Shown here: piece by piece, positions 6,633 to 23,911 of the stretch | Layout: each line of letters begins with the position of its first letter | How positions within the stretch are numbered: position 1 is the stretch's first letter | Virus record (IMG/VR): IMGVR_UViG_3300046791_000119 | Span: 1 to 29,384 of that record | Source: a virus | Length of the DNA: 29,384 bases | Reading direction: 5' to 3' (one strand) | Program-made: the position numbers and the translations under genes | Notes under the pieces: model-generated | Databases searched by the model: none | The model's input: only the letters and a program-made list of their open reading frames with translations | Told to the model about the DNA's origin: nothing

Positions 6633-6891
6633 AACTCTTTGTCGTCGGATCGTAATTGTTTGGCCGCGGACCTTGCTTGCCGCAATCGCGAATGTCCGTG
6701 ATAAGCTTGGCAATCAATTCCAATTGCATCTTATTGCGTTCGTTTGAGTTGGCCACCGCGCCGGCCATAAGGTAAACGAGAATTCCGAGAAAGCCGGCGT
6801 TGACCAATAGCAGCGCCAGCAGCATCGGCGTCCCCTTAAACGAATCGACAACCGTGGTGGCAACCTTGCCGGCTTGCTCGGGCATACTCAT
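6616..6891 (-). CDS. Holin-like single-span membrane protein, 91 aa
   Basis: A short N-terminal soluble part is followed by one strong hydrophobic helix (residues about 23-47, 'MLLALLLVNAGFLGILVYLM'). After that comes a charged helix ('ERNKMQLELIAKLI') and a basic soluble tail. One helix, small size and position at the end of the lysis block behind the amidase fit a holin or pinholin-type protein that releases the endolysin. ATG 6891 overlaps the previous stop (ATGA); ATG 6885 is an alternative. With only one helix it might instead be a spanin-like or unrelated envelope protein. Confidence 0.6.
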   Translation of the reverse strand: MSMPEQAGKVATTVVDSFKGTPMLLALLLVNAGFLGILVYLMAGAVANSNERNKMQLELIAKLITDIRDCGKQGPRPNNYDPTTKSFIFLR

Positions 6892-7100
6892 TGCGGGGAT
6901 ACTTTATGAAACTCGCCGCACCAATCCGCCGGCATGACCGTCGGCCAGGCGCAATCAACTCTTTGTTTATGCCCGGCCGATGGTTGCCGATAGGATGCCG
7001 TGGCCAACCATACCGACGGCGGGCCGCGCTGACACGTGCTCGAGGAGTCAATAAAATACCGGCATTGCGCGCATGATTCGCCGTCGGGAACCGTGGTCAT
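6888..7100 (-). CDS. Small Cys-rich phage protein, 70 aa
   Basis: ATG 7100 overlaps the stop of the amidase (ATGA); frames starting further upstream run through that gene. The protein has CAQC at residues 10-13, then 'STCQRGPPSVW' with C23, and later 'RVDCAWPTVMPADWCGEF' with C50 and C61. CxxC, C-R-x-P-P and a final WCGEF are features of a widespread small phage protein often placed near lysis or tail genes. The five Cys suggest metal binding. No function is known. Confidence 0.7.
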   Translation of the reverse strand: MTTVPDGESCAQCRYFIDSSSTCQRGPPSVWLATASYRQPSAGHKQRVDCAWPTVMPADWCGEFHKVSPQ

Positions 7101-8077
7101 TCTTTTTTCTCCCAGGGATAAATAACCTCGACGTCGGAGTCTGTCGTTAGCTGCAAATCGGCCATGAGCGATGGCGATAGATCGGCGATTCGATTCGTCG
7201 CCGAGTTGGGCCCCCAATCGGCCGGCATGGCGGTCAACGCAAAGCCGGTTGCGGCATTGCGCACTAAGGCAACGTCGGGCCCGCAAAGCATCGCTTTGGG
7301 GGTGACGTCATAATTCCAACGGCAAGCTACGTAATGCGTCGCTACGTTTAGGTCGCGCCCGAGCGCCGGCGAACTCAGTGGTTTGCCGGCCATGAACACC
7401 GCCGGCTTGTCGCTTTGCTTCATTAAAAACGCCAACGGTTCCGAGCTTGTCATTCCCGAATCCGCCGGGCCGCCGAATTCCGAGCACCGTCCGATGGCGT
7501 GAAATGCCACCTCGGGCAATGGTGCGCCAGGAGCCGTCGTTTCATCGCCGGTTAATATTGCGGCGATGTTTTCGCAAATAGCGTCAAAATTGGCTTCGTA
7601 TATGTCAACGTCGGGCATGGAATCGACAAAGCATATTTCCAAGAGCACGCTTTTTTCTTCGGTGTCGCGTAAAAATTTTAGGTCTGTCCGCTGCTTTGGT
7701 CCCCTATCAATGAACCCCACCGCGGCAATCGCCCGCGATATGTCGCCGGCGAGCTTTGCGTCCGAATAGTAAAGCACCTCGCAGCCCATAGCCTTGGTAT
7801 CGGTATGCTCATACGCATTTAGGTGAATTGAACAATCGAGTTGGCGGGTTTCGCGGTTGTGAGCCGATACAATTGTTGAAAGGTTGGTTGATTGATCGTG
7901 CGACGTGTTATCGTGGAACGTGACTACCTTACAATCGCGGTTGCGTAATTCTTCCGCCAGGCGCTCGACAATGCGGCGCGCTTCGTCCACTTCGTCTAGG
8001 CCGTCGGGGTCGCTGGCGCCGCGCACGTATTTGCCGTGCCCAGAGCTCAATACGATGCTGGAATAATCGTATGGCAT
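7097..8077 (-). CDS. N-acetylmuramoyl-L-alanine amidase (Amidase_3), endolysin
   Basis: The N-terminal 175 residues show the Amidase_3 zinc site: H14 in 'LSSGHGKY', E29 in 'GLDEVDEA', H85 in 'CSIHLNAY' and the catalytic E147 in 'VLLEICFVD'. The enzyme cleaves the bond between N-acetylmuramic acid and L-alanine in peptidoglycan and would lyse the host at the end of infection. A linker leads to a C-terminal domain (about 190-326) of unknown family, possibly for wall binding. No signal peptide is visible, so release through a holin is expected; the holin-like gene lies two genes downstream. GGGAGGG precedes ATG 8077. Confidence 0.9.
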   Translation of the reverse strand: MPYDYSSIVLSSGHGKYVRGASDPDGLDEVDEARRIVERLAEELRNRDCKVVTFHDNTSHDQSTNLSTIVSAHNRETRQLDCSIHLNAYEHTDTKAMGCEVLYYSDAKLAGDISRAIAAVGFIDRGPKQRTDLKFLRDTEEKSVLLEICFVDSMPDVDIYEANFDAICENIAAILTGDETTAPGAPLPEVAFHAIGRCSEFGGPADSGMTSSEPLAFLMKQSDKPAVFMAGKPLSSPALGRDLNVATHYVACRWNYDVTPKAMLCGPDVALVRNAATGFALTAMPADWGPNSATNRIADLSPSLMADLQLTTDSDVEVIYPWEKKE

Positions 8078-8089
8078 TGCCGGCCCTCC

Positions 8090-11000
8090 CTAGTTGATCT
8101 GCGAGCCCAATATGCTGCCGCTATTGCTCAACGTTATGAAGCTTATACCATCAATCGCCGGGCCGGCGGCGCCGCCGGCGCGCACGTTGACGGGGGCAGC
8201 GGTGTTTGTCGAGCTTGCGCCGGCCAGGCCAGGCCCACCGCCAGCGCCGCCGAGAAAATTCGTGCTATTGGTGCCGCCGAGCCCGCCGGCGGCGGTGGAA
8301 CCGTTGTTACCATTATAGTTTGCTATATTGCCGCCGCTGGCAACGCCGCCGGCGCCGCCATTCGTTCCCGAACCGCCGCCGCCGGCATACTCGTAATTGG
8401 GCGGGGAAAAAGTCGCACCGCCACCGCCGCCGCCGCCGAATATTTCCGCGGTGTTTGTTAGGTTGATTGCTTGCCTGGTATAGAACGCCGTAGCGCCTGG
8501 ATTGCCTACGCTCGCTCCTTTTTGCGCGTTACCGCCGGCGCCGCCGCAACCTTGAATGCGCCCGCCATTGTTAATGTTGATGGTGACGCCGGAATTCCAA
8601 CCGGTGCCGACGTCGAAAGCGACGCCGCCGGTGGTGTTGGCGCCAATGGTAATTCCGCCGTTGATAATGCAATTCACGGTGTCGCCGGAAACCGCTGCGG
8701 TAAACAGCGAGTCGTGTATCGTTTTTAGATTTATGCCGTTTTGATTGGAATCGATAAATATATTGCGCGTCGTCGTATCAATCAAATCCTCGCTGGCGCT
8801 GGCTAACATTTCCTCGGCCTCGACAATCCATCGGTCCGGCGCCGAGCTCACTCGCGTTAGCTGAATCGGAATATCTACCCAATCGCCGGTATCGTCCTGA
8901 AACGGCCAGGAGCGCCGCACGACGTTTGGACCGCCAAGCAAATAGCCGCCGCCGAGCGCCGGCGCCGTGACGCTGAAACGCAATAGCTCGAATTTGAACC
9001 GCCGCGGCGCGCGCTTGAAGCGATTCAAATAGCGTAGCGCAATGCGATTGGCCACCGAGCGCCCGCCTTGCGCAATCTCGCGCGCATAGATTGTCTTGAT
9101 TGCCGAACTGCCCTCGAGGAATTCCGTTAGTTCGTCGGTCACTACCTCGGTTGAACGATAGTTGCGCGTTTCGTCAACCTTTAGCGTCGGGTTGATTTGC
9201 CCATAATAAACGATTACTCGCGAAACGCGCTTTTCCGGTTGCTCGGTAACCTCGAGCGTTCCGGTGAGAACGTTGTCCTCGGTAAAACGATCGGCCGTCG
9301 TCGGAATCGAGCGAATAACTTGCCAGCGAACTTGCTGGTTAACGTCGTCCCACCATAGCGCCGAGCCGGTGGCCTGTAATACTTCCTCGACAAGTTTATC
9401 AACCGGCGTTGGCTCGGTAATTAACATCGAAATATTTATAGCGAGGTAGGTCGCGCTTTCCAGGTGCCAAGCGTCAATATCAATATAAGCCGCGTCGATG
9501 TCGGCAATGAATTGCAACAAAAGTTGCAGAACATCGGCCGGGTCGCTAGGCTCTACGGCCAAACATAATTGGAATCTGTCTTGCGCCGAATGCGTGCCTT
9601 CCTCGGTGTTGAAAATGCCGCGCGCGTCTAAATCGACATTATCACCGCTTATATTTTGATAATGTACAATCTCGCTGCCACCGATACAGGCGAAGCCGTC
9701 GGTGCCATAAAAGTTATTCGGATCGGCCAGGGCTCCCGACGGGCCGATCGAAATGTTTATGTTGCCGGTGGTTATGTCGGCTGTCAAAAACCCACTTGAC
9801 GGTGGCGGTGTGACTATACGATCGCCAGAAGCAAATTTTAGAATGTCTTGCGCGGTGATTGTAAACTCGCCCTCTGGCGTCGGCCCGGCCATCGAGTCAA
9901 TAATAAAATACCGAGTTTCCAGCGCCGCCAGCGATTGCTCCGCCTCGCCGATGTAGAGGCGAATTTGCCGGCCGCGCATATAGGGATTTCGCGCGCGGAA
10001 TTTGCCCCAAAACGTTCCTCGCGTGTATGGATCATAGCCGCGGCTAGACGGGTATTTATCAAAACTTGGTCCGGCGTCGGAGTGCGGCGCGTCCCTGAAA
10101 ACAATTTTCAGCGAGGCGCGCTGGCCAATCTGGCCCTCTAGCGAAACGATCGCCGGTTGATAATCAACCGTCTTTATAAAGGGATATACCGTTGCGGCAA
10201 TTGGGCTTACTAGCGGGATATTCTCGCTAAAAAGCAGTGTTACCGTTTCCTCGGTAAAGTTTTCGAGGTCCTGGCAAGTACCGACGCTGTTAAAACACTT
10301 GCGCGAACCCGTCGCAAAACCAACGGCGTATTCCGTGCCGTTGGCAACCGTGGTAAAACCTCCGCCGGTTCCTAGATTGGTTTTGAATGCGGTCCCGGCA
10401 TTGCCAAAGTAAACCAACGGCGTACCAAAGCCGGGCGCCTGGCCGATCGTGCCGAGGTAAACCGGATTGCCGTTGGCCGATATGAATTTGCGCCGATTGG
10501 CGGCAACGGAAAAATCAACATAGGTGTTAAGACTCAGCCAAAAATCGGCATAGATTGTTTCGTCGTCTATATGCTCGGTGCCATCGGCCAAAGCGCCGAA
10601 AGACCAATCGGCCAAAGTATAGTCGATGGCATTATTAGCATAGGTAACGGCGTTAAGACTGCTAACGTCGTCAATGTACAGGTGACGCAACGCCGTGCTG
10701 GTTAGATCAAAACTAAAGAGAGTGTGATACCAGGAGCCACTCTGTATTGCCGTGGTATTGCGCATATCAAGCGTCAGCGTGCCGGCGCTGGTCGTGCCGG
10801 TGATGCGAAAAATTCCGCTAACAAGCCGAATGCTGAATCGCGTTGTCGCGCCATTAAGCGTTGTTTCGCCGGCGAATAGCGTTTGATTGCCGCCTGTATT
10901 GGCGTTGGCAAAAAACCAAAAGCTTCCGGTCGCTTGCTTGCCATCGGCCGCGCCGGTTAGGCCGCCATTGCGATGTGCGAAGGTATCGGTGCCGAATCCA

Positions 11001-11137
11001 ACCGCGTTTGGTTCCGCGCCATTGGTCGGCGCGCCGCCGGCAACGTCAAAGCCGGTTTGCGCCCTGCAAGGCAGAACACTATAGGTCAACGTGCAATGCG
11101 GAACGTCCAGCGCGACGAATTGCACAACGCCGGTCAT
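8090..11137 (-). CDS. Large tail-tip/host-recognition protein with LamG-like domain and glycine-rich end
   Basis: This 1015-residue protein occupies the place of a siphophage central tail or host-specificity protein. Residues about 70-190 resemble a laminin-G/concanavalin-like lectin fold ('GSFWFFANANTGG', 'GSWYHTLFSFDL', 'LRHLYIDDVS'). The middle part (about 320-800) resembles baseplate-hub-like tail proteins ('ETRYFIIDSMAGP', 'LWWDDVNQQVRWQVI'). The last 170 residues are glycine-rich ('IFGGGGGGGATF', 'GGAGGVASGG'), as in tail-tip adhesins where polyglycine helices bind the receptor. It is probably the adhesin contacting the host surface. Its start overlaps the upstream tail gene by four bases, and the amidase follows after 12 bases. 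Confidence 0.75.
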   Translation of the reverse strand: MTGVVQFVALDVPHCTLTYSVLPCRAQTGFDVAGGAPTNGAEPNAVGFGTDTFAHRNGGLTGAADGKQATGSFWFFANANTGGNQTLFAGETTLNGATTRFSIRLVSGIFRITGTTSAGTLTLDMRNTTAIQSGSWYHTLFSFDLTSTALRHLYIDDVSSLNAVTYANNAIDYTLADWSFGALADGTEHIDDETIYADFWLSLNTYVDFSVAANRRKFISANGNPVYLGTIGQAPGFGTPLVYFGNAGTAFKTNLGTGGGFTTVANGTEYAVGFATGSRKCFNSVGTCQDLENFTEETVTLLFSENIPLVSPIAATVYPFIKTVDYQPAIVSLEGQIGQRASLKIVFRDAPHSDAGPSFDKYPSSRGYDPYTRGTFWGKFRARNPYMRGRQIRLYIGEAEQSLAALETRYFIIDSMAGPTPEGEFTITAQDILKFASGDRIVTPPPSSGFLTADITTGNINISIGPSGALADPNNFYGTDGFACIGGSEIVHYQNISGDNVDLDARGIFNTEEGTHSAQDRFQLCLAVEPSDPADVLQLLLQFIADIDAAYIDIDAWHLESATYLAINISMLITEPTPVDKLVEEVLQATGSALWWDDVNQQVRWQVIRSIPTTADRFTEDNVLTGTLEVTEQPEKRVSRVIVYYGQINPTLKVDETRNYRSTEVVTDELTEFLEGSSAIKTIYAREIAQGGRSVANRIALRYLNRFKRAPRRFKFELLRFSVTAPALGGGYLLGGPNVVRRSWPFQDDTGDWVDIPIQLTRVSSAPDRWIVEAEEMLASASEDLIDTTTRNIFIDSNQNGINLKTIHDSLFTAAVSGDTVNCIINGGITIGANTTGGVAFDVGTGWNSGVTININNGGRIQGCGGAGGNAQKGASVGNPGATAFYTRQAINLTNTAEIFGGGGGGGATFSPPNYEYAGGGGSGTNGGAGGVASGGNIANYNGNNGSTAAGGLGGTNSTNFLGGAGGGPGLAGASSTNTAAPVNVRAGGAAGPAIDGISFITLSNSGSILGSQIN

Positions 11138-11928
11138 GCTATCCCGCGCATTTCAAGCGAGACAATAAAGCGATCGGTCGGCAGGTGCATTTCCGGCCGC
11201 GGGTCTTTTGTTAACCAGCAATAGCCGGTATCGGTCGGATAAATTGCCGGCGCCCATGACATAAAAAACGGGTTTTCAACGGCGGCAATGATAAAGGCGT
11301 CAATTTCGGCGCGATAAAAACTATTGGTAAAATACCAAAAATCTATTTTGGAATCCTTGTATTGATTGCGGACCAGGCGCCCGAGGAACTGGCCGGACTC
11401 AGCCATTCCGCTGACTATATCCGACACCGTGGCCAGATTTATCGGCGTGTGATTGAGGTCAATGCGGACGCTACGCTCGAGCGTTGTAATACTGCCGGCA
11501 TAAAGCACGGCGGCGGCGCCCGGTGTCGTGCCTGGCCCTTGCATCCGCAACCGCACGCCGACGCAATTAGCAACCGGCGCCCATTGAAACAGTAGCGGCA
11601 TGTTGTCGGTGATAGCGGTTGCCGGCACGGCCGTGACCCAGGTCGAGCCGTTAAGCGTTGTTTCAACCGTGCAAGTAAGTCCGGCGGAGCCAAAATAGTG
11701 TTGGGCAACCGCCAGATAACTCAGCGTTTCATTGATGCCGGAAATGGTGATGTATTCGCTTGTCACGTTGGCGGCCGATTGCCACCTTAAATGCGTTGAC
11801 GGGTTCGCCAAGTTGGTAACGGGAAAATCCGCTGCCGCGGTGGTTGCGGCAATGTTGGACGCGGTGACGACATTGCGCCACCCAACCACCGGATTACCGT
11901 CGGTCACGCCGCTGGCCCGAATAATCAT
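11134..11928 (-). CDS. Minor tail protein downstream of the tape measure, 264 aa
   Basis: ATG 11928 overlaps the stop of the tape measure gene (ATGA); the longer frame from 11970 would run inside it. The N-terminal 150 residues are rich in Ser/Thr/Ala beta-strand-like sequence ('DFPVTNLANPSTHLRW', 'GLTCTVETTLNGSTW'), like a jelly-roll or carbohydrate-binding module. The C-terminal part ('FWYFTNSFYRAEIDAF', 'FFMSWAPAIYPTDTGYCW') resembles distal tail-type proteins. Position between the tape measure and the tail-tip protein supports a distal-tail or tip-assembly role. The specific family is not certain. Confidence 0.65.
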   Translation of the reverse strand: MIIRASGVTDGNPVVGWRNVVTASNIAATTAAADFPVTNLANPSTHLRWQSAANVTSEYITISGINETLSYLAVAQHYFGSAGLTCTVETTLNGSTWVTAVPATAITDNMPLLFQWAPVANCVGVRLRMQGPGTTPGAAAVLYAGSITTLERSVRIDLNHTPINLATVSDIVSGMAESGQFLGRLVRNQYKDSKIDFWYFTNSFYRAEIDAFIIAAVENPFFMSWAPAIYPTDTGYCWLTKDPRPEMHLPTDRFIVSLEMRGIA

Positions 11929-13889
11929 TGCCGTGCGAACCTCACACCTGTTCCGCCGTTGCGCATCCATTCGTCAATTGACAGCACCATTTCCCGCACG
12001 GTGTCGCCGGTAAAAAAGTCTTTCGGCCGTATCGGGTTTATCACCAGCGCCCCGCCGGATCGGTTCACCTGGTTGGCCGGCGTTACGTCCACGCGCTCGC
12101 CGGGCGCCAGGTGCATCCGCACGAGTTTTGAATCGGTCGCCCTATTGCCGCCCGGCACCATGAATGAACCGCCCATAGCCGCCGACGGCGGTTTCTGCGC
12201 GACGATCTTAGCAACCGCGGCGAGGCCGGATGCTAACGCCGCGGCCGCGGCAATTTCCGGCAATGGCGGCGGGAGTGGCAAAGTTAGCGCCCTGGTAAAC
12301 GCCAAATAAGAATTGATGATTGCTTGCGCGATGGCAAAAGCCTTGCCGGCGACAAACATGGTTTTATTTCCGGCGGCAAAGGCCATGAAAAATTCAGAAA
12401 ATTGACCGGCCGCCGTCGAAAGCACCGTGCCCATTTGCTCCTGCATTTTTTGGAATGCTTGGGCGCTCGCCAGGCGCATTTTGTCTGCGCTCAGCGGAAA
12501 GTCCGAACCTTGAATCTGTATTAGGTCGCGCAATTTTTTCTCGTATTGCTCCATCGGCGTTTGCAAATCTGTGCTCAATTTCATTTGCACGGCCGCCAGG
12601 TTCACCGCATTCGCCGCCGCCTGATCCGCAAGCGCCTTAATTGCCGCGCGTTGCTTATCCGTCATAGCAATATTGTTGGCTTGCGCGATCGCTTGCGCCT
12701 CTAAAGATACCTTTAAGCTTTCATGCGCCCCGATCAAACCGCCCATTGTCGTTATCTGCGCTTGCGTGGCGGCCTGGCCTTTCTGTTGCGAAATAATAAA
12801 TTGGTCTAGTGCGTTCTTTGCTGCCTCGATGATTGGCGCCGGGTCGCTTTTGCCAAAATTGCGAAACGTCAACGCCAGCATATTGATTTGATTATTCAGA
12901 TTATCGACGTTGATGCCCAGGACAAACGAATTTTGCAGGTCGTTAAACCGTTTTTGATTCTCGGCAATAACGCCGGACATTCTGTTAAAAAATGCCGATA
13001 CGCTCTCGGTCGGGTCCGTTGCTTTTAATGCCGTCCATAATGTAATCAAATTGCCCCATAGCAATTGATAAGTCTGTAATTGCTGCAAATCAGACTGCGT
13101 AATGAGGTTGCTAACGATGTCCTTAAAAAATCCGCCTTTCGTCTTTCCATCTAAAAATGTATCGGCAAGCTTTTGTAATATCGGCAGTAAGTTTTCCGCG
13201 GCAAGCAACGCCAAGCCTTGCGATGCGGCGCTAATTTTTTTGAGCGTATCATTAAATTGCTCGGCCTTCGCCGCCGTCTCCGTGCTTATAACAATGCCGA
13301 GCTTCGCCGCCTCGTCGGTCATTTCCTTGATGCCGGAACGGCCTTGATTCAGTAATGGAATCAAATCTGCGCCTGACTTACCGAATAATTTTATTGCCAG
13401 CGCGGTTTTGCCGGCGCCGTCCTCCATTTTGGCGAACTTGTCGGCGACATCTAGAAAAACATCCTCTGAGCTTCGCAGGTTTCCATTGGTATCGGTAACG
13501 GAAACGCCGATAGCCTTGAAACCTTTGGCCGCCTTGCTGGCAGGATCGGTTGACTCGGACATGGCTTTCGCCATTTTGCCCAAGCCTTTTTCAAGCGACT
13601 CAAAACTTACGTTGGCCAGGTCGGCCGCGTATTTCAATCCCGATAATGTTTCAACAGGAACGCCGAACTTTTGCGACGCCTTGCTCAATTCGTCGGCCGT
13701 GTTAATCATGCCTTTGACGTCGGTGACAAATTTCGTTGCGACGGCGGTGATAGCTAATTTTTTGGCGACGTCATTAAATACGGCTTGAAAATTCTTTAAC
13801 GATTGTTCCGAGTCCTTGAGTCCTTTGGAAAAGTTGGCGGTATCGATTCCGAGGATCGCCCGCAATGCGCCTATGACCGCTTCAGACAT
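11925..13889 (-). CDS. Tape measure protein
   Basis: The 654-residue protein is almost entirely helical, with long Ala/Lys/Gln-rich stretches ('EQSLKNFQAVFNDVAKKL'). A small hydrophobic block near residues 535-570 ('LPLPPPLPEIAAAAALASGL') leads into the Ala-rich end, as in other tape measure proteins. It follows the two chaperone frames and precedes the distal tail genes, the conserved siphophage order. It sets tail length and is passed into the host envelope during DNA entry. Using about 0.15 nm per residue, a tail of roughly 100 nm would be expected. It overlaps the chaperone frame by eight bases. Confidence 0.9.
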   Translation of the reverse strand: MSEAVIGALRAILGIDTANFSKGLKDSEQSLKNFQAVFNDVAKKLAITAVATKFVTDVKGMINTADELSKASQKFGVPVETLSGLKYAADLANVSFESLEKGLGKMAKAMSESTDPASKAAKGFKAIGVSVTDTNGNLRSSEDVFLDVADKFAKMEDGAGKTALAIKLFGKSGADLIPLLNQGRSGIKEMTDEAAKLGIVISTETAAKAEQFNDTLKKISAASQGLALLAAENLLPILQKLADTFLDGKTKGGFFKDIVSNLITQSDLQQLQTYQLLWGNLITLWTALKATDPTESVSAFFNRMSGVIAENQKRFNDLQNSFVLGINVDNLNNQINMLALTFRNFGKSDPAPIIEAAKNALDQFIISQQKGQAATQAQITTMGGLIGAHESLKVSLEAQAIAQANNIAMTDKQRAAIKALADQAAANAVNLAAVQMKLSTDLQTPMEQYEKKLRDLIQIQGSDFPLSADKMRLASAQAFQKMQEQMGTVLSTAAGQFSEFFMAFAAGNKTMFVAGKAFAIAQAIINSYLAFTRALTLPLPPPLPEIAAAAALASGLAAVAKIVAQKPPSAAMGGSFMVPGGNRATDSKLVRMHLAPGERVDVTPANQVNRSGGALVINPIRPKDFFTGDTVREMVLSIDEWMRNGGTGVRFARQ

Positions 13890-15032: not shown

Positions 15033-15593
15033 CTATGTACTGGCCGCTTGCCGGGCCGCCTTGCGGGCCAGGCGCGCCGCGGCCTTTTGAATCTCATTCC
15101 ATAGCTCGGATTTGATTAGCTCGAGTGCTTGCAAGGCGTTGGCGTCCCAGGCCGGCCGCATGTACGGTTGCGGGCCGTGGTGCACGGTGCCAAATTCTTG
15201 CATGTACGCTTGCGGCATTCGGCCTGGGCCGATCACCATAACCGCCGAGGTTATGGCGGGATCATCGCCGGCGGCCGCGGCGTTGGCCGCCCTGGCGGCG
15301 CTTTGCGCCTCGGCGCGCGTGGCGCCTTCCGACATGGCCTGTGCGAATGCCTGCTTGCCGGCGCTGCCGCCGGTGAACTTGATCTTTGAAACCGTGATGC
15401 TGTTTTTCAATTCGCCCGGCCGCGGCGGGCCTACCGGCGCCAGGTCAATCGCCATATCCAAGATAGGTTGCCCGGCCTTGACCAACGCCCGCCGCATAAC
15501 GTTTTTGCCGGTCGCCTTGGGCAATTCCTGCAGCGCCGTCTCGAGCTCGGCCAGGCCCTCGACTCGCAAGCTAGTGACAAGTTGAAGCGCCAT
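15033..15593 (-). CDS. HK97 gp10-like head-tail/tail component, 186 aa
   Basis: The N-terminus 'LVTSLRVEGLAELETALQELP' and the following 'MRRALVKAGQPILDMAIDLAP' are the hallmark of the HK97 gp10 family, where a helix follows a short strand. A later 'AYMQEFGTVHHGPQPYMRPAWD' is its typical 'E.GT..h.a.PFmrPa' end motif. Between them is an Ala-rich, probably loop-like insertion ('AQSAARAANAAAAGDD') that lengthens the protein compared with usual members. It acts at the head-tail interface or in tail completion. Its start overlaps the previous stop by one base. Confidence 0.85.
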   Translation of the reverse strand: MALQLVTSLRVEGLAELETALQELPKATGKNVMRRALVKAGQPILDMAIDLAPVGPPRPGELKNSITVSKIKFTGGSAGKQAFAQAMSEGATRAEAQSAARAANAAAAGDDPAITSAVMVIGPGRMPQAYMQEFGTVHHGPQPYMRPAWDANALQALELIKSELWNEIQKAAARLARKAARQAAST

Positions 15594-16018
15594 TAGTTTC
15601 GCTCGTTATGCCAGAGGAAAAAATCGCGCCCCATCGTGTAGAGTTTGGTCGTGTCGTCAAAAGCTTCGCTCGATAGGTTGGAATGAAATATTCCCTGTAC
15701 CGTGCAAACCTCGGCCGGTGAGCCGCCGAAAGTAACGTCGCCGGCAAAACCAGAAATATGTTCGTGCACTAGGTTGGCCAGGTGCGCGGCGCTGTCGGTT
15801 GACCGCGATAGCGAGTCGATCTGGAACCGCGTCTGCATTAGCCAAGACGGGCCGCGGTAGTGGTAGATTTCGCTTTCGCTTATGCGGTGAAAAACGATCG
15901 AATCCCTTATTTCACCTTGCGGCAATAGTACCGTAAAAACCCGACTGCCGACTATGGCGACAATATCGGGGTTAGCCAGGATCAGCGCCCGCAAACCTGG
16001 CCTAGCGTCAACCAGCAT
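15593..16018 (-). CDS. DUF3168-type tail completion protein, 141 aa
   Basis: The N-terminus 'DARPGLRALILANPDIVAIVGSRVFTVLLPQG' has the DUF3168 beginning, where a short helix is followed by a loop with a VG..V......P pattern. The region 'RFQIDSLSRSTDSAAHLANLV' matches the family's middle part. Members close the top of the tail at the connector and are placed just before the gp10 family and tube genes, as here. Start ATG 16018 directly abuts the stop of the methyltransferase gene. Confidence 0.8.
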   Translation of the reverse strand: MLVDARPGLRALILANPDIVAIVGSRVFTVLLPQGEIRDSIVFHRISESEIYHYRGPSWLMQTRFQIDSLSRSTDSAAHLANLVHEHISGFAGDVTFGGSPAEVCTVQGIFHSNLSSEAFDDTTKLYTMGRDFFLWHNERN

Positions 16019-16693
16019 CTATTCCGCCCTCCGCTTGAAGGCAAAGGCGCCTATATCCTCGCGCCCCGCTATTATTTCCATTTCGCTTTCGCTTACCAGG
16101 TCAAAGCCGAGGCAGTGCAAGGCGCCAATCAGGCCGCCGCGGGTAAAATACCAACAATGTTCGTCCGGCCGGTAATGTTTGGAGCGTAAAGCGTGCTCGG
16201 CGTCGGTAAAAATAGGCAATGCCAGGAACAACCACTTTTGCACCTTGGCCAATAGCGGGCGAAAGTCGCGGATATGTTCGAGCACGTCCCATAAAGACAA
16301 GGCCGGAACCGGGCCATGATAGGGGTTAAGCCATAGGCCGCGCCGCTTTAGCCAGGCCACGCCGGCCGGGTTAATATCAAAGCCGAACGTCGAATGCGGA
16401 ACCGAGGCGTTGCGCCGCTCGATAAAGGCGCCGCAACCGATGCCGACGTCTATGAGCATTTCGCGGTGCATATGCTCATAAACAAAGGCTACGCGCTGGC
16501 GCATAAGCGTTTGGCCGATCGGCGAGGCCGCCTGGCGGGCGAACCGATCAAAGTAATCCTGGTCATAAGGCGCGCCCTCAATAGGCAGGTAGCCAATTCC
16601 TAATTGGCTAAACCATTGCAGGCTTGGTTGCGAACCTGGCCGCCATACCAGGTCAAAAATTGCGGCATTAAATCGGGAATGGTTTTCTCGCAT
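16019..16693 (-). CDS. SAM-dependent methyltransferase, 224 aa or longer
   Basis: A class I methyltransferase motif I is clear ('LIDVGIGCGAF', the SAM-binding Gly loop), followed by 'TFGFDINPAGVAWL' with the acidic strand-2 residue. A motif IV-like 'LSLWDVLEHI' follows. The later 'SKHYRPDEHCWYFTRGGLI' is also typical of small-molecule or sugar methyltransferases that accompany glycosyltransferases. I start at ATG 16693; ATG 16714 is also possible, and either overlaps the upstream glycosyltransferase by about 100 bases, so the true start may be internal. It is the third gene of a sugar-modification-like cassette inserted between head closure and tail completion genes. The substrate is unknown. 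Confidence 0.75.
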   Translation of the reverse strand: MRENHSRFNAAIFDLVWRPGSQPSLQWFSQLGIGYLPIEGAPYDQDYFDRFARQAASPIGQTLMRQRVAFVYEHMHREMLIDVGIGCGAFIERRNASVPHSTFGFDINPAGVAWLKRRGLWLNPYHGPVPALSLWDVLEHIRDFRPLLAKVQKWLFLALPIFTDAEHALRSKHYRPDEHCWYFTRGGLIGALHCLGFDLVSESEMEIIAGREDIGAFAFKRRAE

Positions 16694-17487
16694 TGGTGGC
16701 GCATATCGGTGCATGGGCAGAAAACCTCCGGTTTGGCGAAGCCGATGCGGCTTAGGTCTAGGCGCGGATCGGTGATTCTAGCCGGCGCGTTGTGGCCGCC
16801 CTGGCCGCCGAGCACGATAAAACAGGGACGCTTTAAGGCGATCGCCGCCGGGACAATCCAACCGACGCCGCCCAGGATCAGCGCCGCGCTGGCCGCCAGC
16901 GATAACATATCCATCACCGGCAATTCTCCCAGGCAAAAAACGCTATCGGCCTTGGGCGGGTCGCCGACAAACCACTCGGCGCGGTCGGCGACGTCGGCCA
17001 CCGTGACGATATGGTGCGAAGGCCGCAGGTAATCGCATATTGCGGCGATATATTCCGGCCGCGGGTTGCGCGCCTCGTTTAGCCATTCGGTTCGCGCGGT
17101 AACCGGGCGCACGAATACGATCGGCTTTTGCGATACGATCGGCGGTGGCGGCAATGGCGGCAAGTCGAAATAGTCGGGATTCAACTTGGTGTTAAAACAT
17201 TCCTCGAATGCGTTGATAATCGAGCCGCCAGAAAGATTATAGGCAACGCGGCGTTGGCCGCCTTGCGGACCTGGCGCCCAAACGTCGGCCGGCGTGCGCA
17301 CCATGTTCTTGGCCTGCGTGCGAAGAATGCTTTGCTTTTTTACCAACTTGATCGGCAGGTCAGAATACAATTGCGGCCACGGCGTTTCTAAATAAACCTC
17401 GTAGAGTCCCATGACCGCGCGGATAAAAGGCCGTTGAAAAATGTTATCGCCGAGGCCGTGCATACCAATGTAATGCCGTTGGTTCAT
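16600..17487 (-). CDS. GT9-like glycosyltransferase, 295 aa
   Basis: The N-terminus 'HYIGMHGLGDNIFQRPFIRAV' matches the heptosyltransferase/GT-B beginning, where G-GD--- lies in the first Rossmann loop. 'PIVFVRPVTARTEWLNEARNPRPEYIAAICDYL' starts the second half. The acceptor/donor region with 'SAALILGGVGWIVPAAIALKRPCFIVLGG' follows GT9, where 'D.....P..H.A...g.P...lfG' is typical, and the final part is Cys-rich (residues about 260-275). Donor and acceptor cannot be told. It is the middle gene of a three-gene cassette with overlapping ends (ATGA with its upstream neighbour). Confidence 0.65.
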   Translation of the reverse strand: MNQRHYIGMHGLGDNIFQRPFIRAVMGLYEVYLETPWPQLYSDLPIKLVKKQSILRTQAKNMVRTPADVWAPGPQGGQRRVAYNLSGGSIINAFEECFNTKLNPDYFDLPPLPPPPIVSQKPIVFVRPVTARTEWLNEARNPRPEYIAAICDYLRPSHHIVTVADVADRAEWFVGDPPKADSVFCLGELPVMDMLSLAASAALILGGVGWIVPAAIALKRPCFIVLGGQGGHNAPARITDPRLDLSRIGFAKPEVFCPCTDMRHQCEKTIPDLMPQFLTWYGGQVRNQACNGLAN

Positions 17488-18113
17488 AGGCAGGCCTCGA
17501 GCGTGGCCGATGGAAAACAGGTGAGCGCACTATTCGGCGTTGCGTTGACGATGCGAATCGACGGCGGCAAAAGCCTCGCGGCGATGGTAAAGTTTTCCAG
17601 AAAAGTCGGGTACATGTTGGGATTGTTAAGCGGCCGCGGATGATTGCCGAAAAAGTGTTGTTTGCCCTCTACGGCGCGCATATCAAAGCCGACTAGGACA
17701 ACCTCGGCCACGCCGAACAATAGCGCCAGGTTAATCGCCTGGAAGCCGGAATTGGCGCCGTAGTGGATGCGCTCGGGGTTAAACGAAAAGCCTTCCGCCT
17801 CGGCGTGGACTCCATCGACCAGGTGTAAATCGTACGCCTGCGCGGTGTTTAACTTGTCGTTTAGCCGGCCCTGGTTGAAGTCGTGCGAGCTCCATTTCTC
17901 GCCGGCAAAGCCTTTGCAACCTTTATGGTGCGCCCACCATGCCGAGTCGCAGGCGTATAAAATGTCGGCCTTGGGCAAAAGCTTATAGGCGTCATTGACC
18001 GCGATTAGCCGATGCGTGGCCGCGGCCTGGCACCGCTCGGCCACCGCCGGCGTCAGTGACGGGCCGGTTGCGGCCACGATACACTTTGCACCTAGCCAGC
18101 GTTTTTCGATCAT
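17484..18113 (-). CDS. MptE/DUF115-like glycan- or nucleotide-associated protein, 209 aa
   Basis: The protein has a Rossmann-like core: 'KCIVAATGPSL' is followed by 'RLIAVNDAYKLLPKADILYACDSAWW' and later 'NSGFQAINLALLFGVAEVVLVGFDM'. The GPSL, VND and VLVGFDM elements are those of the MptE-like/DUF115 group, which includes proteins that lie in surface-glycan clusters. It ends with 'SALTCFPSATLEACL'. The overlaps with the head-closure gene and with the GT9-like gene (both ATGA) place it in the late mRNA. A role in making or transferring a sugar is inferred from the neighbours; biochemical activity is not shown. Confidence 0.65.
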   Translation of the reverse strand: MIEKRWLGAKCIVAATGPSLTPAVAERCQAAATHRLIAVNDAYKLLPKADILYACDSAWWAHHKGCKGFAGEKWSSHDFNQGRLNDKLNTAQAYDLHLVDGVHAEAEGFSFNPERIHYGANSGFQAINLALLFGVAEVVLVGFDMRAVEGKQHFFGNHPRPLNNPNMYPTFLENFTIAARLLPPSIRIVNATPNSALTCFPSATLEACL

Positions 18114-18484
18114 GGCACGTCGGCGCGGCGCGCGGCGATAATGGCCAGGCCCTCGCGCCGGCCTATCTCATTAACCGCCAGAATATCATAAAGCCGGTTG
18201 ACCGCGGTAAGCGCCGGCGGCGATCCGGCCTCGAGCGCCGGGTATATGACGCGATCGAGTGGAGATAGGTTGGCGACGTCGGCGCTATAGCGAATGCGAA
18301 ACTCAACTTGCTGCAGCGCCGCCACTTGCGGCGCATTGAACCGCTCGGTTCCTGCAACCGGCGCGTATGAGGCCGCGCGCCGTGTGATGATGGTTTGCCA
18401 ACCGGCAATAACCGCGCCCGAGTCCGACGTGGAATTGGTGGCGCGTTGAATATCAATAAGCCGGTCCAGTTTTCCCGCGCGCAT
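18110..18484 (-). CDS. Head closure / head-tail adaptor protein, 124 aa
   Basis: The beginning 'MRAGKLDRLIDIQRAT' is the hallmark of the SPP1 gp16/phage_H_T_join family, where a 'M..G.L..RI.I.......' strand starts a small beta-barrel. 'AGWQTIITRRAASYAPVAGTERFNA' and 'VEFRIRYSADVANLSPLDRVIYP' continue the family pattern, with R-x-x-x-x-x-x-P-x-D-R near the middle. The protein closes the connector after DNA packaging and offers a platform for the tail. ATG 18484 lies two bases after the previous stop. Confidence 0.85.
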   Translation of the reverse strand: MRAGKLDRLIDIQRATNSTSDSGAVIAGWQTIITRRAASYAPVAGTERFNAPQVAALQQVEFRIRYSADVANLSPLDRVIYPALEAGSPPALTAVNRLYDILAVNEIGRREGLAIIAARRADVP

Positions 18485-18486
18485 GT

Positions 18487-21400
18487 TTAGCCACTCCCTT
18501 GTCGCCGCGTCGGCGTCGGCGCCGCCGGCCTGGCCGGGTGTTGGTCGTCCGGCCGCGTCGGATTATCGGCCACCGGCCGCCGCGCCCAATAGCTCGTAGT
18601 ACTCCAAGCCGAATGCGCCTGGCGCCGATCGGTGCTCAATGCCACCGTAAAGTTGCCGGCCTGGCCAAAAGCCGAAACCCCGACTAGCGGTACGTAGCGG
18701 GCGCTCGGGCTCGAGACAATAAACAGGCCACGTTGCCCGGTCGCCGGCGCCGCCGTGAGCGTCTTGGCAACATTGGGAACGAGGCTCGCGGCCTGGCCGG
18801 TGGCCGTGGTGGCGGTGACCGTCTTGGCCGGATTGGGAACGAAACTCGCGCGCTGTCCGGTGGCAGTGACCGAAACAAGATTGACGTTGGCATTCGCGCC
18901 CACCGATACGCTGAAATTACCGCGTTGCGACGTCGCCGGCGCCGCGGTGAGGTTGACGTTGGCGTCAACGCGAATCGCGAACGTGTTGGTCTGGCCGGTG
19001 GCGATGGTGGCGGTAAGCGTCTTAGCCGGATTGGGAACCAGGCTCGCGGCCTGCCCGGTGGCTGGCGCCGCGGTAAGCGTCTTAGCTGGATTGGGAACCA
19101 GGCTCGCGGCCTGGCCGGTGGCGCTGGCCGAAACTAGATTGACGTTTGCATTGCCCGCCGCCGATACGCTGAAACTGGCGAATTGCCCCGTCGCCGGCGC
19201 CGCAATGAGATTAACGTTGGCGTCACCGCGCACCGTGAACGTGTTGGTCTGGCCGGTAGCCGGCGTTGCCGTAAGCGTCTTGGCTGGATTGGGAACGAAA
19301 CTCGCGCGCTGGCCGGTGGCCGGCGCCGCGACTAGCGAAACGCTGGCCGGAATGGAAACCGTAAACGCGCCTATTTGCGCGGTCGCCGGCGCCGCTACCA
19401 AATTGAAATTGATATTTCCCGCCGCCGATACGCTGAAATTACTGAATTGGCCGGTCGCCGGCGCCGCAATGAGATTAACGCTGGCGTCGCCGCGAATCGC
19501 GAAGGCGTTGGTTTGACCCGTCGCCGTAGTGGCAACGGGCGTCTTTGCAACGTTGGGAACGAAACTAGCGGCCTGGCCGGTGGCCGGCGCCGCGGTAAGC
19601 GTCTTATCGACTCTTGGCGTGAGGCTCGCGGCCTGGCCGGTGGCAGGCGCTGCAGTCAGCGTGACGCTGGCCGAACCGCTTACGGTAAACGAAGCGAACT
19701 GGCCCGTTGCCGAGGCCGCGGTAAGCGGTTTATCGACCGCCGGCGTAAAGGTTGCGCTTTGCCCGGTGGCGCTGACCGCGCTGAGGTTAACGTTGGTCGC
19801 CGAGGTGGCCGACACCGTGAACGAATTGAATTGTCCGGTGGCTGGCGCGGCAGTGAGCGCCTTATCAACCGCCGGTGTAAAGGTTGCGGCCTGCCCGGTT
19901 GCGGGCGCGGCGGTTAACGTCTTATCAACCGCGGGCGTAAAGGTTGCCCGCTGCCCGGTCGCCGGCGCCGCGACTAGCGAAATGCTGGCCGGAATGGAAA
20001 CCGTAAACGCAGCAATCTGGCCGGTTGCCGAGGCCGCGGTCAGTGGTTTGTCAACCGCCGGCGTAAAGGTTGCGCGCTGTCCGGTGGCGCTGACTGCAGT
20101 CAAGTTGACGTTAGTCGCCGAGGCGATCGAAACCGTGAATGAACTAAATTGCCCGGTGGCGCTTTGCGCCGTAAGCGGTTTGTCAACCGCCGGCGTAAAG
20201 GTTGCGGCCTGGCCGGTGGCGCTGACCGCGGTGAGATTAACGTTGGTCGCCGAGACAACCGAAACCGTGAATGAATTAAATTGCCCGGTGGCCGGCGCGG
20301 CGGTGAGCGTTTTCTGTACGTTAGGAACAAAAACACTTGTCTGCCCGGTGGCCGGCGCGGCGGTGAGCGAAATGTTTGAGCTTATCTGTAGCGAAAAAGT
20401 ATTTGTCTGCCCGTTTGCCGAAACACTTGTCGGCGTAATGTCCGTCCCCGCAGTGATCTTGAATGATACGGTGCCGAGAACGATGGCGCCCAACGCCGTG
20501 CCGCCAACTTGCTTGGCGCATGTTGGCGTAATGCTGGCGGTCGAACTTACCGTGCGATGGCCGATGGAGGATTGCGGCCAGAACGTAGAGCCCTGATTGA
20601 CGCCATAGACCGTTATTGCCTTGACGCTTGGCGATCCGTATTCCGGCAGGTCAGTAGTGCCAATCCCCGCCCAAGTAATCACTAATTCGTTTGCTTGCGC
20701 CAGCGTCCCGGTAGCGGGCGCGTTTACGCTTGCGGTGGTGACGGCCGGGTTAACATCTATTGCCGAGAACGGGCCTTTATAGGCCGCCGCGCAAATCGCC
20801 CGCGTACCTTGCGATGATAGATGGCCAATGGCTGTCAGAGTGCCGGCCGTGGTAACGATAGAGTAGTACGCCTCTCCGTTGTCGGTCCCGCTGGCACCGC
20901 TGCCGCATGCCGTGTAGGTGTTGCCTAGGTTGTCGGTTACTGATCCCGAAATTCCGCCTTGGGCAGCACAGACGACAAAGACAAGATCGTTAACGGCAAC
21001 GGTGGCAAAACCGTTAGCAGTCTTTGTTGTCCCGCCGCCGCCGGTTAGCGCGGTGGGAAGCGAAAAGACGCCAATACAATCGCCGGCGACATTGCTCGCA
21101 TTCAGTTTGCGGAAACTGGCGGTCTTGGTTGCGCCCGACGTACTGGCGCTGCTACCGATCGACGGCGTTTCGCCGGCTGTCGAGGAAACCAGATGAAAGA
21201 TATTCGCGCCCGATGCGGTATTCGCGCCGGTTCCGCTCGATGCTCCTATGCCGAGCGTATAAGGCGACGTTGCGGTATAGCTCGCCGCCGCGCCGCCGTT
21301 GCCTTGCCCCATAAGGCCGAAAATAACTTCATCGGCTTGCGATAGCGTTCCGCTCGCCGGACAGCCATATGGCGTCGTTGAGTCAGCTATAGAAAATATG

Positions 21401-21753
21401 TCTCGGTCGTTGGTGAAAGGATCGAATGGCCCTTCGATCACCGTGACAGCGAAACCAACGTCGCCTGCCGAACTTGGATGCGCCGCCGTTACTGTCGTTA
21501 GCGTGCCTGCCGAAGTCGCATAGGCAAAGAACGAATACGGTCGGGCACCGCCTATTGTATTGTTGAAGTGCAGACGATGGTAGAAAGAGCCAAGATTGTC
21601 GGCCAGCGTAATGTCATTAAGGACAGCATTCTGTGCGTAGTTGGCGACGATAAGATCGCCAACGCTGACCGATACAGAGCCGGTCGCAGCTATACCAGTA
21701 CCGGGACTAGTGCTGTTGCCAGTTAGATTGCCGCGTAGTGCGCCAAAGGCCAT
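18487..21753 (-). CDS. Giant Ser/Thr/Ala-rich protein with 28 'ATGQ' repeats, 1088 aa
   Basis: The N-terminal part (residues 1-435) appears to contain two related beta-rich domains of about 215 residues. Each has a 'VSVGDLIVANY/VAVNDLVFVVC' element and later 'IEGPFDPF/YKGPFSAI' and 'GTLSQADEVIF/GTLAQANELVI'. From about residue 437 to 1045 come 28 repeats of roughly 20-24 residues around ATGQ, alternating 'KTLTAAPATGQ..TFTPAVD' with 'VNLTAVSATGQ..SFTVS' types. The C-terminal 40 residues are basic and Pro-rich. No enzyme motif is present. It is in the late head region, so it is probably a surface fibre or decoration protein. It does not belong to a family I recognise, and it directly precedes head closure and the sugar/methyl-transfer cassette. 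Confidence 0.75.
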   Translation of the reverse strand: MAFGALRGNLTGNSTSPGTGIAATGSVSVSVGDLIVANYAQNAVLNDITLADNLGSFYHRLHFNNTIGGARPYSFFAYATSAGTLTTVTAAHPSSAGDVGFAVTVIEGPFDPFTNDRDIFSIADSTTPYGCPASGTLSQADEVIFGLMGQGNGGAAASYTATSPYTLGIGASSGTGANTASGANIFHLVSSTAGETPSIGSSASTSGATKTASFRKLNASNVAGDCIGVFSLPTALTGGGGTTKTANGFATVAVNDLVFVVCAAQGGISGSVTDNLGNTYTACGSGASGTDNGEAYYSIVTTAGTLTAIGHLSSQGTRAICAAAYKGPFSAIDVNPAVTTASVNAPATGTLAQANELVITWAGIGTTDLPEYGSPSVKAITVYGVNQGSTFWPQSSIGHRTVSSTASITPTCAKQVGGTALGAIVLGTVSFKITAGTDITPTSVSANGQTNTFSLQISSNISLTAAPATGQTSVFVPNVQKTLTAAPATGQFNSFTVSVVSATNVNLTAVSATGQAATFTPAVDKPLTAQSATGQFSSFTVSIASATNVNLTAVSATGQRATFTPAVDKPLTAASATGQIAAFTVSIPASISLVAAPATGQRATFTPAVDKTLTAAPATGQAATFTPAVDKALTAAPATGQFNSFTVSATSATNVNLSAVSATGQSATFTPAVDKPLTAASATGQFASFTVSGSASVTLTAAPATGQAASLTPRVDKTLTAAPATGQAASFVPNVAKTPVATTATGQTNAFAIRGDASVNLIAAPATGQFSNFSVSAAGNINFNLVAAPATAQIGAFTVSIPASVSLVAAPATGQRASFVPNPAKTLTATPATGQTNTFTVRGDANVNLIAAPATGQFASFSVSAAGNANVNLVSASATGQAASLVPNPAKTLTAAPATGQAASLVPNPAKTLTATIATGQTNTFAIRVDANVNLTAAPATSQRGNFSVSVGANANVNLVSVTATGQRASFVPNPAKTVTATTATGQAASLVPNVAKTLTAAPATGQRGLFIVSSPSARYVPLVGVSAFGQAGNFTVALSTDRRQAHSAWSTTSYWARRPVADNPTRPDDQHPARPAAPTPTRRQGSG
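18619..20445 (-). repeat. Coding tandem repeat array, 28 units of about 60-72 bp
   Basis: The units encode about 20-24 residues centred on A-T-G-Q with variants ANGQ, ATAQ, ATSQ and AFGQ at some copies. Several neighbouring units are near-identical at DNA level, for example the two 'KTLTAAPATGQAASLVPNPA'-like units around 19.0-19.1 kb. The array is in frame throughout. Its antisense strand is open over long stretches, which explains large spurious ORFs on the plus strand. Confidence 0.85.
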
Positions 21754-21831: not shown

Positions 21832-22296
21832 TTAAGCGATACGCAAAAGCGACGTGCCCGCTGCGTTAGCCGGAAGGATCAGCGTCAACGTTCCCGCGGT
21901 GACGGTTTGCGTGCCGGCAAAGTCACCGACATAAACCGATTTGCCCGCGCTTGTTGAATTGTAAAGCAGGCAAGCGATTGTCGAAAAGCTTGCCGACGTC
22001 CAATTCGGATTCACGCTCCAAGACCAAAAGGCGGTGGTGCCGGTGGAAGTCGGCGTTGTGTTTTGCGCCGCCGTCCAAAGGAAGCCGTTCGTGGTGTAGC
22101 CGCCGCCCGAGGCTACTTCGTCGGTGGTTGCCGTTTGCAGTTGCGATAGGTTCGTCGTCGAGGCGTCATAGGTTCGTGCGGCGCCCACTTTGCCGAGCGC
22201 CACGGCAAACACGTTGCCCGTCGTGGTGGTGAAGTTATGCGTCGCTGTTGCCAGTTCAACTTTGAAACTCGTAGTCATTGCGGTGGTGAAGGCCAT
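21832..22296 (-). CDS. Conserved-looking phage structural protein, 154 aa
   Basis: The start 'MAFTTAMTTSFKVELATATHNF' and later 'VFAVALGKVGAARTYDASTTNLS' and 'TSASFSTIACLLYNSTSAGKSVYV' match the layout of a widespread phage structural group that begins MAFTTAM.NSFK.EL. It ends in 'LPANAAGTSLLRIA'. This beta-rich protein usually lies among head or neck genes and is thought to be a minor decoration or fibre protein. No function is proven. GGGAG precedes ATG 22296 by nine bases. Confidence 0.7.
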   Translation of the reverse strand: MAFTTAMTTSFKVELATATHNFTTTTGNVFAVALGKVGAARTYDASTTNLSQLQTATTDEVASGGGYTTNGFLWTAAQNTTPTSTGTTAFWSWSVNPNWTSASFSTIACLLYNSTSAGKSVYVGDFAGTQTVTAGTLTLILPANAAGTSLLRIA

Positions 22297-22302
22297 TTGA
22301 TT

Positions 22303-22629
22303 TTACTCCCGGTAAAGTTTGCTCTCGGTGTCTAGAAGCGTATTGAAGTCCCGCGTCAGTATGGCGACAATGCTCGCCTTCAGTAGTGCTCGGTTTGCTA
22401 TGTTCTTTTCGTCGGCCACGAGTTTGAACATAAAATGAATCGTCTTGCGCGCCTGCGCGTAAAGGTCTTGCACCTGCGCCCGCATGGCGGCCATTTTGAC
22501 CGGGTTGGAATCCGGGTCGCATAAGTTATGCATCGACATTTCCGTTATCATTTCGACGGAATGGTTGCCGTTGTTAGTGATGAAAACGCGAACTTGTCCG
22601 TTGCCGGCTTTTGCTTCTACAGGTTGCAT
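22303..22629 (-). CDS. Hypothetical late protein, 108 aa
   Basis: A short strand region 'GQVRVFITNNGNHSVEMI' is followed by helices ('KMAAMRAQVQDLYAQARKTIHFMF', 'RALLKASIVAILTRDFNTLL'). It has no recognised motif, signal or membrane segment. AAAGGGAC lies about eight bases upstream of ATG 22629. Placement between the connector and a structural gene makes a minor virion or assembly role likely, but the sequence does not identify it. Confidence 0.7.
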   Translation of the reverse strand: MQPVEAKAGNGQVRVFITNNGNHSVEMITEMSMHNLCDPDSNPVKMAAMRAQVQDLYAQARKTIHFMFKLVADEKNIANRALLKASIVAILTRDFNTLLDTESKLYRE

Positions 22630-22647: not shown

Positions 22648-23247
22648 TTAGGCCATGCCCAATCGGACGCGGTGAGTCTCCAATAGATTAGTCCAGGCCT
22701 TCGAGGTGAACGCGGTTAATCCTATGCTGATTGTTGCGCGGGTGTCGAAAGCGTCGCCGACGCCGAGCAATACCGCGTGACGAATATCGTCGGGAACGGC
22801 CAGCGTCGGCGGCGAGCTCTGCGACAAGTATCCGGCCCGGTAGCGCACGCGCACGGCGTTAATGCCGTCAAACGTCGCCGGCCAGGCGCCGTCGGGCAAA
22901 ATCCAACCGTAACCGTCCACGGTTTCCGCATCGACGGTGTAGGCGGTGTCCGGCAATATGGTTTCGTCGCCGATCGTATTGTCATAGGCGACGCTGGTAA
23001 CCGCGATCAGCGGTGGCTTCGGCACGCGCAATTCGTTTGGCGGGAAGGTATCAAGCGACAATTCCCACGTTTGATCGACCAGCGCGCGGCCGAGCCAGTT
23101 TTCCACCTCATTGGTCGCCGCGCCGATATAGCGGGTAATCAATGCGTCATAGTCGGCGACGTTGACGTTGCAATGCGCCTTGGCCTCGGCCAGCGTCACC
23201 GGCGACGTCACCGGCGGGGTTATGAGTTTAAGCCCCATCTTTGCCAT
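22648..23247 (-). CDS. Head-tail connector protein (HK97 gp6-like), 199 aa
   Basis: The beginning '[45 protein letters not shown]' is the signature of the phage gp6/phiE125 gp8-type connector family. There 'L.eaK.hl.i...d.D..i...i.aA...ve..tgr.l' forms the N-terminal helices. The part that follows, up to '[14 protein letters not shown]' and '[19 protein letters not shown]', completes the family pattern. It docks under the portal as the ring of adaptor subunits. It overlaps the collagen-like gene by 20 bases; ATG 23238 (three codons in) is an alternative start. Confidence 0.85.
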
Positions 23248-23911
23248 CCCGGCCGCGCTTGCACGCTAACAGCCAATCGTCATTTCCATCTACGCCGGAC
23301 GGTTTCTTATTGGTATCGCGTTGCGCGTACCAGGTAGAGCCGGCAAACGTAACGCTATCGCCGGCGAGGTAAGCGCCGTCTTTCCATATCCCCAGGTGTT
23401 GCGGGAACGGGAAAACAAGCGCCTTGCGCTCGAGCCGATCGCCGGCGCCCCAGGTGATCGTGATTGTTTTTCGTTTGTCCCATTCGACGTTGAACTGCTC
23501 GAGCCCGAGGCCGTCTTTACCGTCGCGGCCAGGCGCGCCGGCGGAAGCGGGCAAGCCGTCGCGGCCGGGCGTGCCGGCCTCGCCTTTAATTGATTTTCCT
23601 TCCGGCCCGATCGGCCCTATAGGTCCGGCCGGACCTATAGGGCCGGGCTCGCCTTGTATCGCTTTGCCTTCCGGTCCTGTTGGCCCCATTGGGCCCGGTG
23701 GTCCGACGCTGCCGGGCTCGCCCTTGTCGCCTGGCGGGCCGATCGGTCCTGGCGCGCCGGCGGCGCCTACCTCGCCTTTCTCGCCGCGTTCCGGTTGTCG
23801 CGCCTCGAGCGCCTTTATGCGATCCAATAGCGGTTGAATCTCGCGGTCCATGTATTGCTTAACCGCGGTGACAACCTCGCGGCCGAATGCCTCGCCGTCA
23901 ATGCCCGGCAT
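23228..23911 (-). CDS. Collagen-like protein with carbohydrate-binding-like C-terminus, 227 aa
   Basis: An N-terminal helix (residues 1-40, '[27 protein letters not shown]') could trimerise the protein. Residues about 43-135 are Gly-X-Y triplets ('[22 protein letters not shown]'-type), expected to form a collagen triple helix. Residues 160-227 end in '[26 protein letters not shown]' and '...[17 protein letters not shown]'. These resemble the CBM5/12-like module found behind collagen stretches in phage proteins. It is probably a surface fibre or receptor-binding decoration on the head or neck. It overlaps the portal end by 14 bases. A 34-bp perfect DNA palindrome lies in the triplet region. 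Confidence 0.85.
23612..23645. repeat. 34-bp perfect palindrome inside the collagen-like gene
   Basis: The half-site CGGCCCTATAGGTCCGG (23612-23628) is followed directly by its exact reverse complement to 23645, with no spacer. It encodes Gly-Pro-Ile/Gly-Pro-Ala triplets and uses the same codons symmetrically (ATA for Ile on both sides). Transcripts could fold to a strong hairpin and the DNA could extrude as a cruciform. Confidence 0.9.

Follow-up and report, generated by a model that had tools for sequence, protein, structure and literature searches.

The window, meaning the whole stretch of DNA analysed, is a virus record of 29,384 bases whose late operon lies on the minus strand. This operon encodes a terminase, a fused protease-capsid protein, a portal protein, a collagen-like protein, Ad1 and two small proteins, followed by a repeat protein, the head closure protein Hc1, a trio of predicted transferases, a tail terminator, gp10, a tail tube protein and a tape measure protein. 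The features considered here are listed below.

23228-23911, minus strand: collagen-like protein behind the portal (PF01391, 1.6e-11), a hallmark of the portal lineage
21832-22629, minus strand: genes for a 154-aa and a 108-aa protein, which move with the repeat protein and stand in the same three-gene order in contig L061 (4950-9180)
18487-21753, minus strand: ATGQ-repeat protein, 1088 aa, 28 motifs; separate module, unlinked to the cassette
18484-18110, minus strand: head closure protein Hc1 (PF05521, 5.5e-15; phrog_25), one border of the insertion
17484-18113, minus strand: predicted Maf/MptE-like glycosyltransferase (phrog_4603, 1.8e-40), cassette gene 1
16600-17487, minus strand: predicted GT-B glycosyltransferase, TibC/heptosyltransferase-like (phrog_6804, 3.5e-89)
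16019-16714, minus strand: predicted SAM-dependent methyltransferase (PF13489, 3.7e-8; phrog_6564, 7.6e-57)
15033-16018, minus strand: tail terminator and gp10 (phrog_347, 7e-7; phrog_5, 1.2e-21), the other border of the insertion
16018-15593, minus strand: tail terminator, directly after the methyltransferase in transcription order
15593-15033, minus strand: HK97 gp10/Neck1, after the tail terminator

A preliminary description of this DNA had placed an overlapping cassette between head-tail genes, next to a repeat protein of 1088 aa, and these gene identities and coordinates were confirmed. Its statement that all of the genes overlap as one unit holds for Hc1 and the trio: the Hc1/MptE-like and MptE-like/GT-B junctions each overlap by 4 nt, and the GT-B and methyltransferase genes by 115 nt. 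It does not extend to the repeat gene, which is separated from Hc1 by a 2-nt gap, or to the methyltransferase gene, which only abuts the tail terminator. The inserted unit between Hc1 and the tail genes consists of the cassette only, excluding the repeat gene, because the repeat protein sits in a separate three-gene module (22629-18487). Elsewhere in the window, a 1015-aa protein (8090-11137) ends in a Gp38-type adhesin domain (residues 797-1013; PF05268, 5.7e-10).

Co-inheritance of the trio and the variable neck slot

Among loci with enough sequence, the methyltransferase gene lies downstream of the GT-B gene, within 2 kb, in 100 of 100 cases, and the Maf-like gene lies upstream of it in 87 of 99. 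The counts hold after clustering at 70% identity (22/22 and 16/22, respectively), so the co-occurrence does not reflect redundancy only. An apparent swap of the methyltransferase and GT-B genes in four loci (L105, L113, L114 and L118) proved to be an artefact of long open frames, and domain coordinates show the usual order. The trio is thus one co-inherited unit of constant order. A scan with a GT-B family profile found matches in no fewer than 293 viral contigs. Where a carrier has a named host, this is mostly a Gram-negative bacterium. In bacterial genomes, GT-B loci were found in Mesorhizobium, Bradyrhizobium, two Bordetella and one Burkholderiaceae MAG, most of them adjoining phage head or tail genes. 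Several capsid types are represented among the carriers; the cassette also stands as an isolated operon in the jumbo phage Eowyn, and cyanophage BUCT-ZZ01 has a GT-B/methyltransferase pair close to a neck gene.

The Pseudomonas phages PAJU2 and D3 (Detrevirus) contain the same three genes, with GT-B genes 47-48% identical to that of the window. The trio occupies the identical place and order in PAJU2 (Hc1-trio-gp10), whereas in D3 the Maf-like gene is placed elsewhere; in both phages, the order of tail terminator and gp10 is the reverse of that in the window. Our literature search found no report on the function of the trio genes in D3 or PAJU2. Three phages of the window's own capsid and portal family (SP-016, X2_26 and SOVA965) lack an insert, and Hc1 adjoins gp10. 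Five further contigs (L141, L142, L149, L190 and L196) leave scarcely any space, or none, between Ad1 and Hc1, and in another five (L143, L150, L167, L188 and L189) the interval holds a Maf-like gene together with other glycosyl- or methyltransferase genes. Across portal-anchored contigs, the fillers of the Ad1-Hc1-gp10 interval are a Maf-like gene and differing GT9, glycosyltransferase or methyltransferase genes, and in L030 a GT-B/methyltransferase pair is located between capsid and portal instead of the neck. The Ad1-Hc1-gp10 interval behaves as a swappable slot, which is either empty or variously filled. In a separate observation, the record of Tetraselmis viridis virus S20 (L015), which resembles a bacterial phage although its stated host is an alga, carries several transferase-type genes, two of them Maf-like, between capsid and Hc1 (6350-12038).

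Predicted folds and family membership of the transferases

The model of the GT-B protein (pLDDT 92.6) is most similar in Foldseek to TibC chains (E 1.1e-8, TMq 0.5-0.63), followed by the LPS heptosyltransferases WaaF (1.8e-7) and WaaC (4.5e-6). The Maf-like model (pLDDT 84) best matches Maf (5mu5; E 8.2e-5, TMq 0.63), with an archaeal MptE-type kinase ranking second. TibC (PMC4358343), a protein O-heptosyltransferase, and Maf (PMC11339370) both act on proteins. With the autotransporter heptosyltransferases (BAHT) TibC/AAH, the GT-B protein shares the GT-B fold, its best PDB match and a Cys-rich motif near the C-terminus. Unlike TibC, its model lacks the N-terminal beta-barrel (residues 1-97) and opens with a Rossmann-type strand-helix, in which the GLGD motif ends at residue 14; in place of the four-Cys iron finger (C339, C342, C358 and C370; PMC4358343) it has a C-x-C-x4-H-x-C motif. 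This putative metal motif is kept in 114 of 115 family members and suggests a bound metal; in the lone exception, L060, Cys and His are exchanged (HxC..CxxC), with four candidate ligands retained. The Asp of the GLGD motif (D14 in the window protein) is conserved in all 114 members compared. The Maf-like protein resembles the Maf flagellin glycosyltransferases in the fold of the central MptE-like domain; it differs from them in comprising only 209 aa, with the flanking Maf domains missing.

Profile searches place these proteins at a distance from the curated families. The window GT-B protein has no match to TIGR04414 (Aah/TibC), and D3 orf12 gives a weak independent hint of this family (E=0.02; 13.8 bits, far below the NCBIfam cutoff of 200). 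The preliminary description had called the GT-B protein GT9-like; the GT9 Pfam (PF01075) and NCBIfam models do not match it, nor was PF01075 matched among 27 family members, and what stands is a probable kinship based on the predicted fold and the conserved GLGD motif. Further genes of the islands in L144 and L189 score above the GT9 Pfam cutoff. The window Maf-like protein scores 23.4 bits against PF01973, under the cutoff of 34.6, and 18 of 20 members of its family reach E<=1 (best 4.1e-6). The methyltransferase passes the PF13489 cutoff (33.7 bits against 27). A sequence-profile search of the PDB gave no significant match for either glycosyltransferase and weak O-methyltransferase matches for the methyltransferase. 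Since both glycosyltransferases miss the curated cutoffs of their nearest families, we limit our claim to predicting that they work like those enzymes, not that they belong to them.

Candidate acceptors of the trio

The best explanation of these features, which we hold to be slightly more probable than not, is that the trio constitutes a swappable phage island that glycosylates, and then methylates, a virion protein as its putative acceptor. The preliminary description had likewise proposed modification of a virion protein, naming the repeat protein or the collagen-like fibre as target; the general proposal fits the co-inherited trio and its TibC- and Maf-like folds, and neither protein is upheld as a dedicated acceptor. 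The repeat protein contains 24 exact ATGQ copies; the looser pattern A-[TFIN]-[GAS]-Q gives 28 motifs, which span residues 446 to 1028 at a spacing of always 20, 22 or 24. This array is far beyond chance, as shuffled versions contained at most two ATGQ over 2000 trials. A scan of viral contigs recovered just two, the near-identical L016 and a relative, L061, and neither the protein nor its N-terminal part had a match among 50,697 phage records. The module of the 108-aa, 154-aa and repeat genes is common to the window and L061, where it lies upstream of a terminase and a portal unrelated to the window's. The 154-aa protein is not a piece of the repeat protein. At the C-terminus of the repeat protein, the final ~50 residues (18487-18650) are rich in Arg, Pro, Thr and His, differ from the L061 ending and resemble a shifted frame, and no alternative reading frame gave back that ending.

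A dedicated role of the repeat protein as glycan acceptor would agree with its adjacency to the cassette in the operon and its Ser+Thr content of 25%, yet a double dissociation makes this role very unlikely. Neither the GT-B nor the methyltransferase gene was found in L061 (a 48.8-kb record, possibly incomplete), although the GT-B search found its target in 10 of 10 other records, and the repeat protein is absent from 10 of 10 cassette-bearing records, some possibly incomplete. Repeat module and cassette are two unlinked units, and the repeat protein could be a bystander substrate. Even less credible is the collagen-like protein as dedicated acceptor: in many relatives its gene sits between portal and cassette, but it is about as common without the cassette (21/26) as with it (6/6; Fisher p=0.55), in a small sample of related members, chosen by portal similarity irrespective of cassette status, that is still compatible with a weak association. 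The collagen-like gene tracks the portal lineage, not the cassette. Separately, its ~95-aa C-terminal domain recurs in homologues from X2_26, SOVA965, SP-016 and PAJU2, which lie behind the portal both in phages that have Gly-X-Y repeats and in phages that lack them, and which are in some cases annotated as portal. Against both proteins stand D3 and Psp6, where absences weigh most because these genomes are complete and other records may not be. Both genomes contain the GT-B, methyltransferase and Maf-like genes, and neither has an ORF of >=100 aa that is strongly repetitive or contains >=7 Gly-X-Y triplets in a row; a cassette without a repeat or collagen protein is the case that the preliminary description had set in advance as refuting its proposal.

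The main rival, which we consider unlikely, takes a host surface glycan, either LPS core or O-antigen, as the target, which the cassette would modify late in infection to keep progeny off debris or to exclude other phages. The mostly Gram-negative named hosts and the proximity of WaaF and WaaC to TibC among the GT-B matches are in its favour; structure prediction, which the preliminary description had suggested as a check, yielded protein-transferase-like folds and did not separate them from an LPS acceptor. D3 is known to alter O-antigen, but via other genes (orf28 acetylase, wzy-beta and iap), and the trio lies apart from these, among late head-tail genes. The Maf-like partner of the GT-B enzyme is similar to a flagellin transferase, and the cassette lacks a membrane flippase or GtrABC-type genes. 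Phage transferases also glycosylate DNA bases in other systems (PMC12619734); for the trio this is highly improbable, given its place in the late structural region and the fact that the annotations of D3 and Psp6, both complete genomes, include no base-modification gene of the hydroxymethylase or thymidylate-synthase-like kind.

Proposed virion glycosylation and related systems

A virion protein is a reasonable target to propose because both glycosyltransferases fold most like the protein glycosyltransferases TibC and Maf, and the late-operon position and gene overlaps of the trio speak for it as well. The PmgO and PmgP proteins of phage P1 resemble the Maf-like gene product and are nonessential (PMC10695390), which fits, as an accessory modification would be expected to be dispensable. 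Counted against a virion target are the several capsid types, the isolated Eowyn operon and the BUCT-ZZ01 pair; fold likeness cannot tell protein from LPS acceptors, WaaF and WaaC being close behind TibC. By eye, the major capsid proteins of cassette carriers show no obvious C-terminal Ser/Thr-rich extension, and no candidate acceptor was found.

The island itself can be seen in its gene content and overlaps, in its co-inheritance and slot behaviour, and in the predicted folds of its products. We propose that the trio would be co-translated with the late head-tail genes, and that the TibC-like GT-B and Maf-like enzymes would move sugars from host nucleotide-sugars onto a virion protein, presumably at Ser/Thr, in the cytoplasm during assembly, after which the methyltransferase would cap the glycan. 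The presumed benefit of this putative activity would be an altered particle surface. The acceptor would not specifically be the repeat or the collagen-like protein, and the slot location would let related phages show different modifications or none.

A precedent is mycobacteriophage Che8, whose capsid glycans are reported at second hand in PMC11256854; in Che8 and its relatives, phage-encoded transferases are reported to decorate capsid or tail tube proteins (Freeman 2023, as cited in PMC11256854 and PMC12619734). Compared by description only, the two systems share phage-encoded transferases. They differ in that the trio is mostly linked to Gram-negative hosts, combines Maf-like, TibC-like and methyltransferase genes and occupies a neck slot.

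In the literature reviewed, the documented cases of glycosylated phage particles come mainly from mycobacteriophages. Because the trio's transferase occurs both in D3, a classic laboratory phage, and in at least 293 viral contigs, virion glycosylation in phages of Gram-negative bacteria becomes testable in an existing model. The slot shows how phage surface chemistry could be exchanged without change to the structural genes. Tentatively, the neck slot of many siphophages may be a virion serotype locus with a Maf-like core and interchangeable glycosyl- and methyltransferases; if so, it would give related phages different particle glycans and thereby vary their adsorption, stability or recognition.
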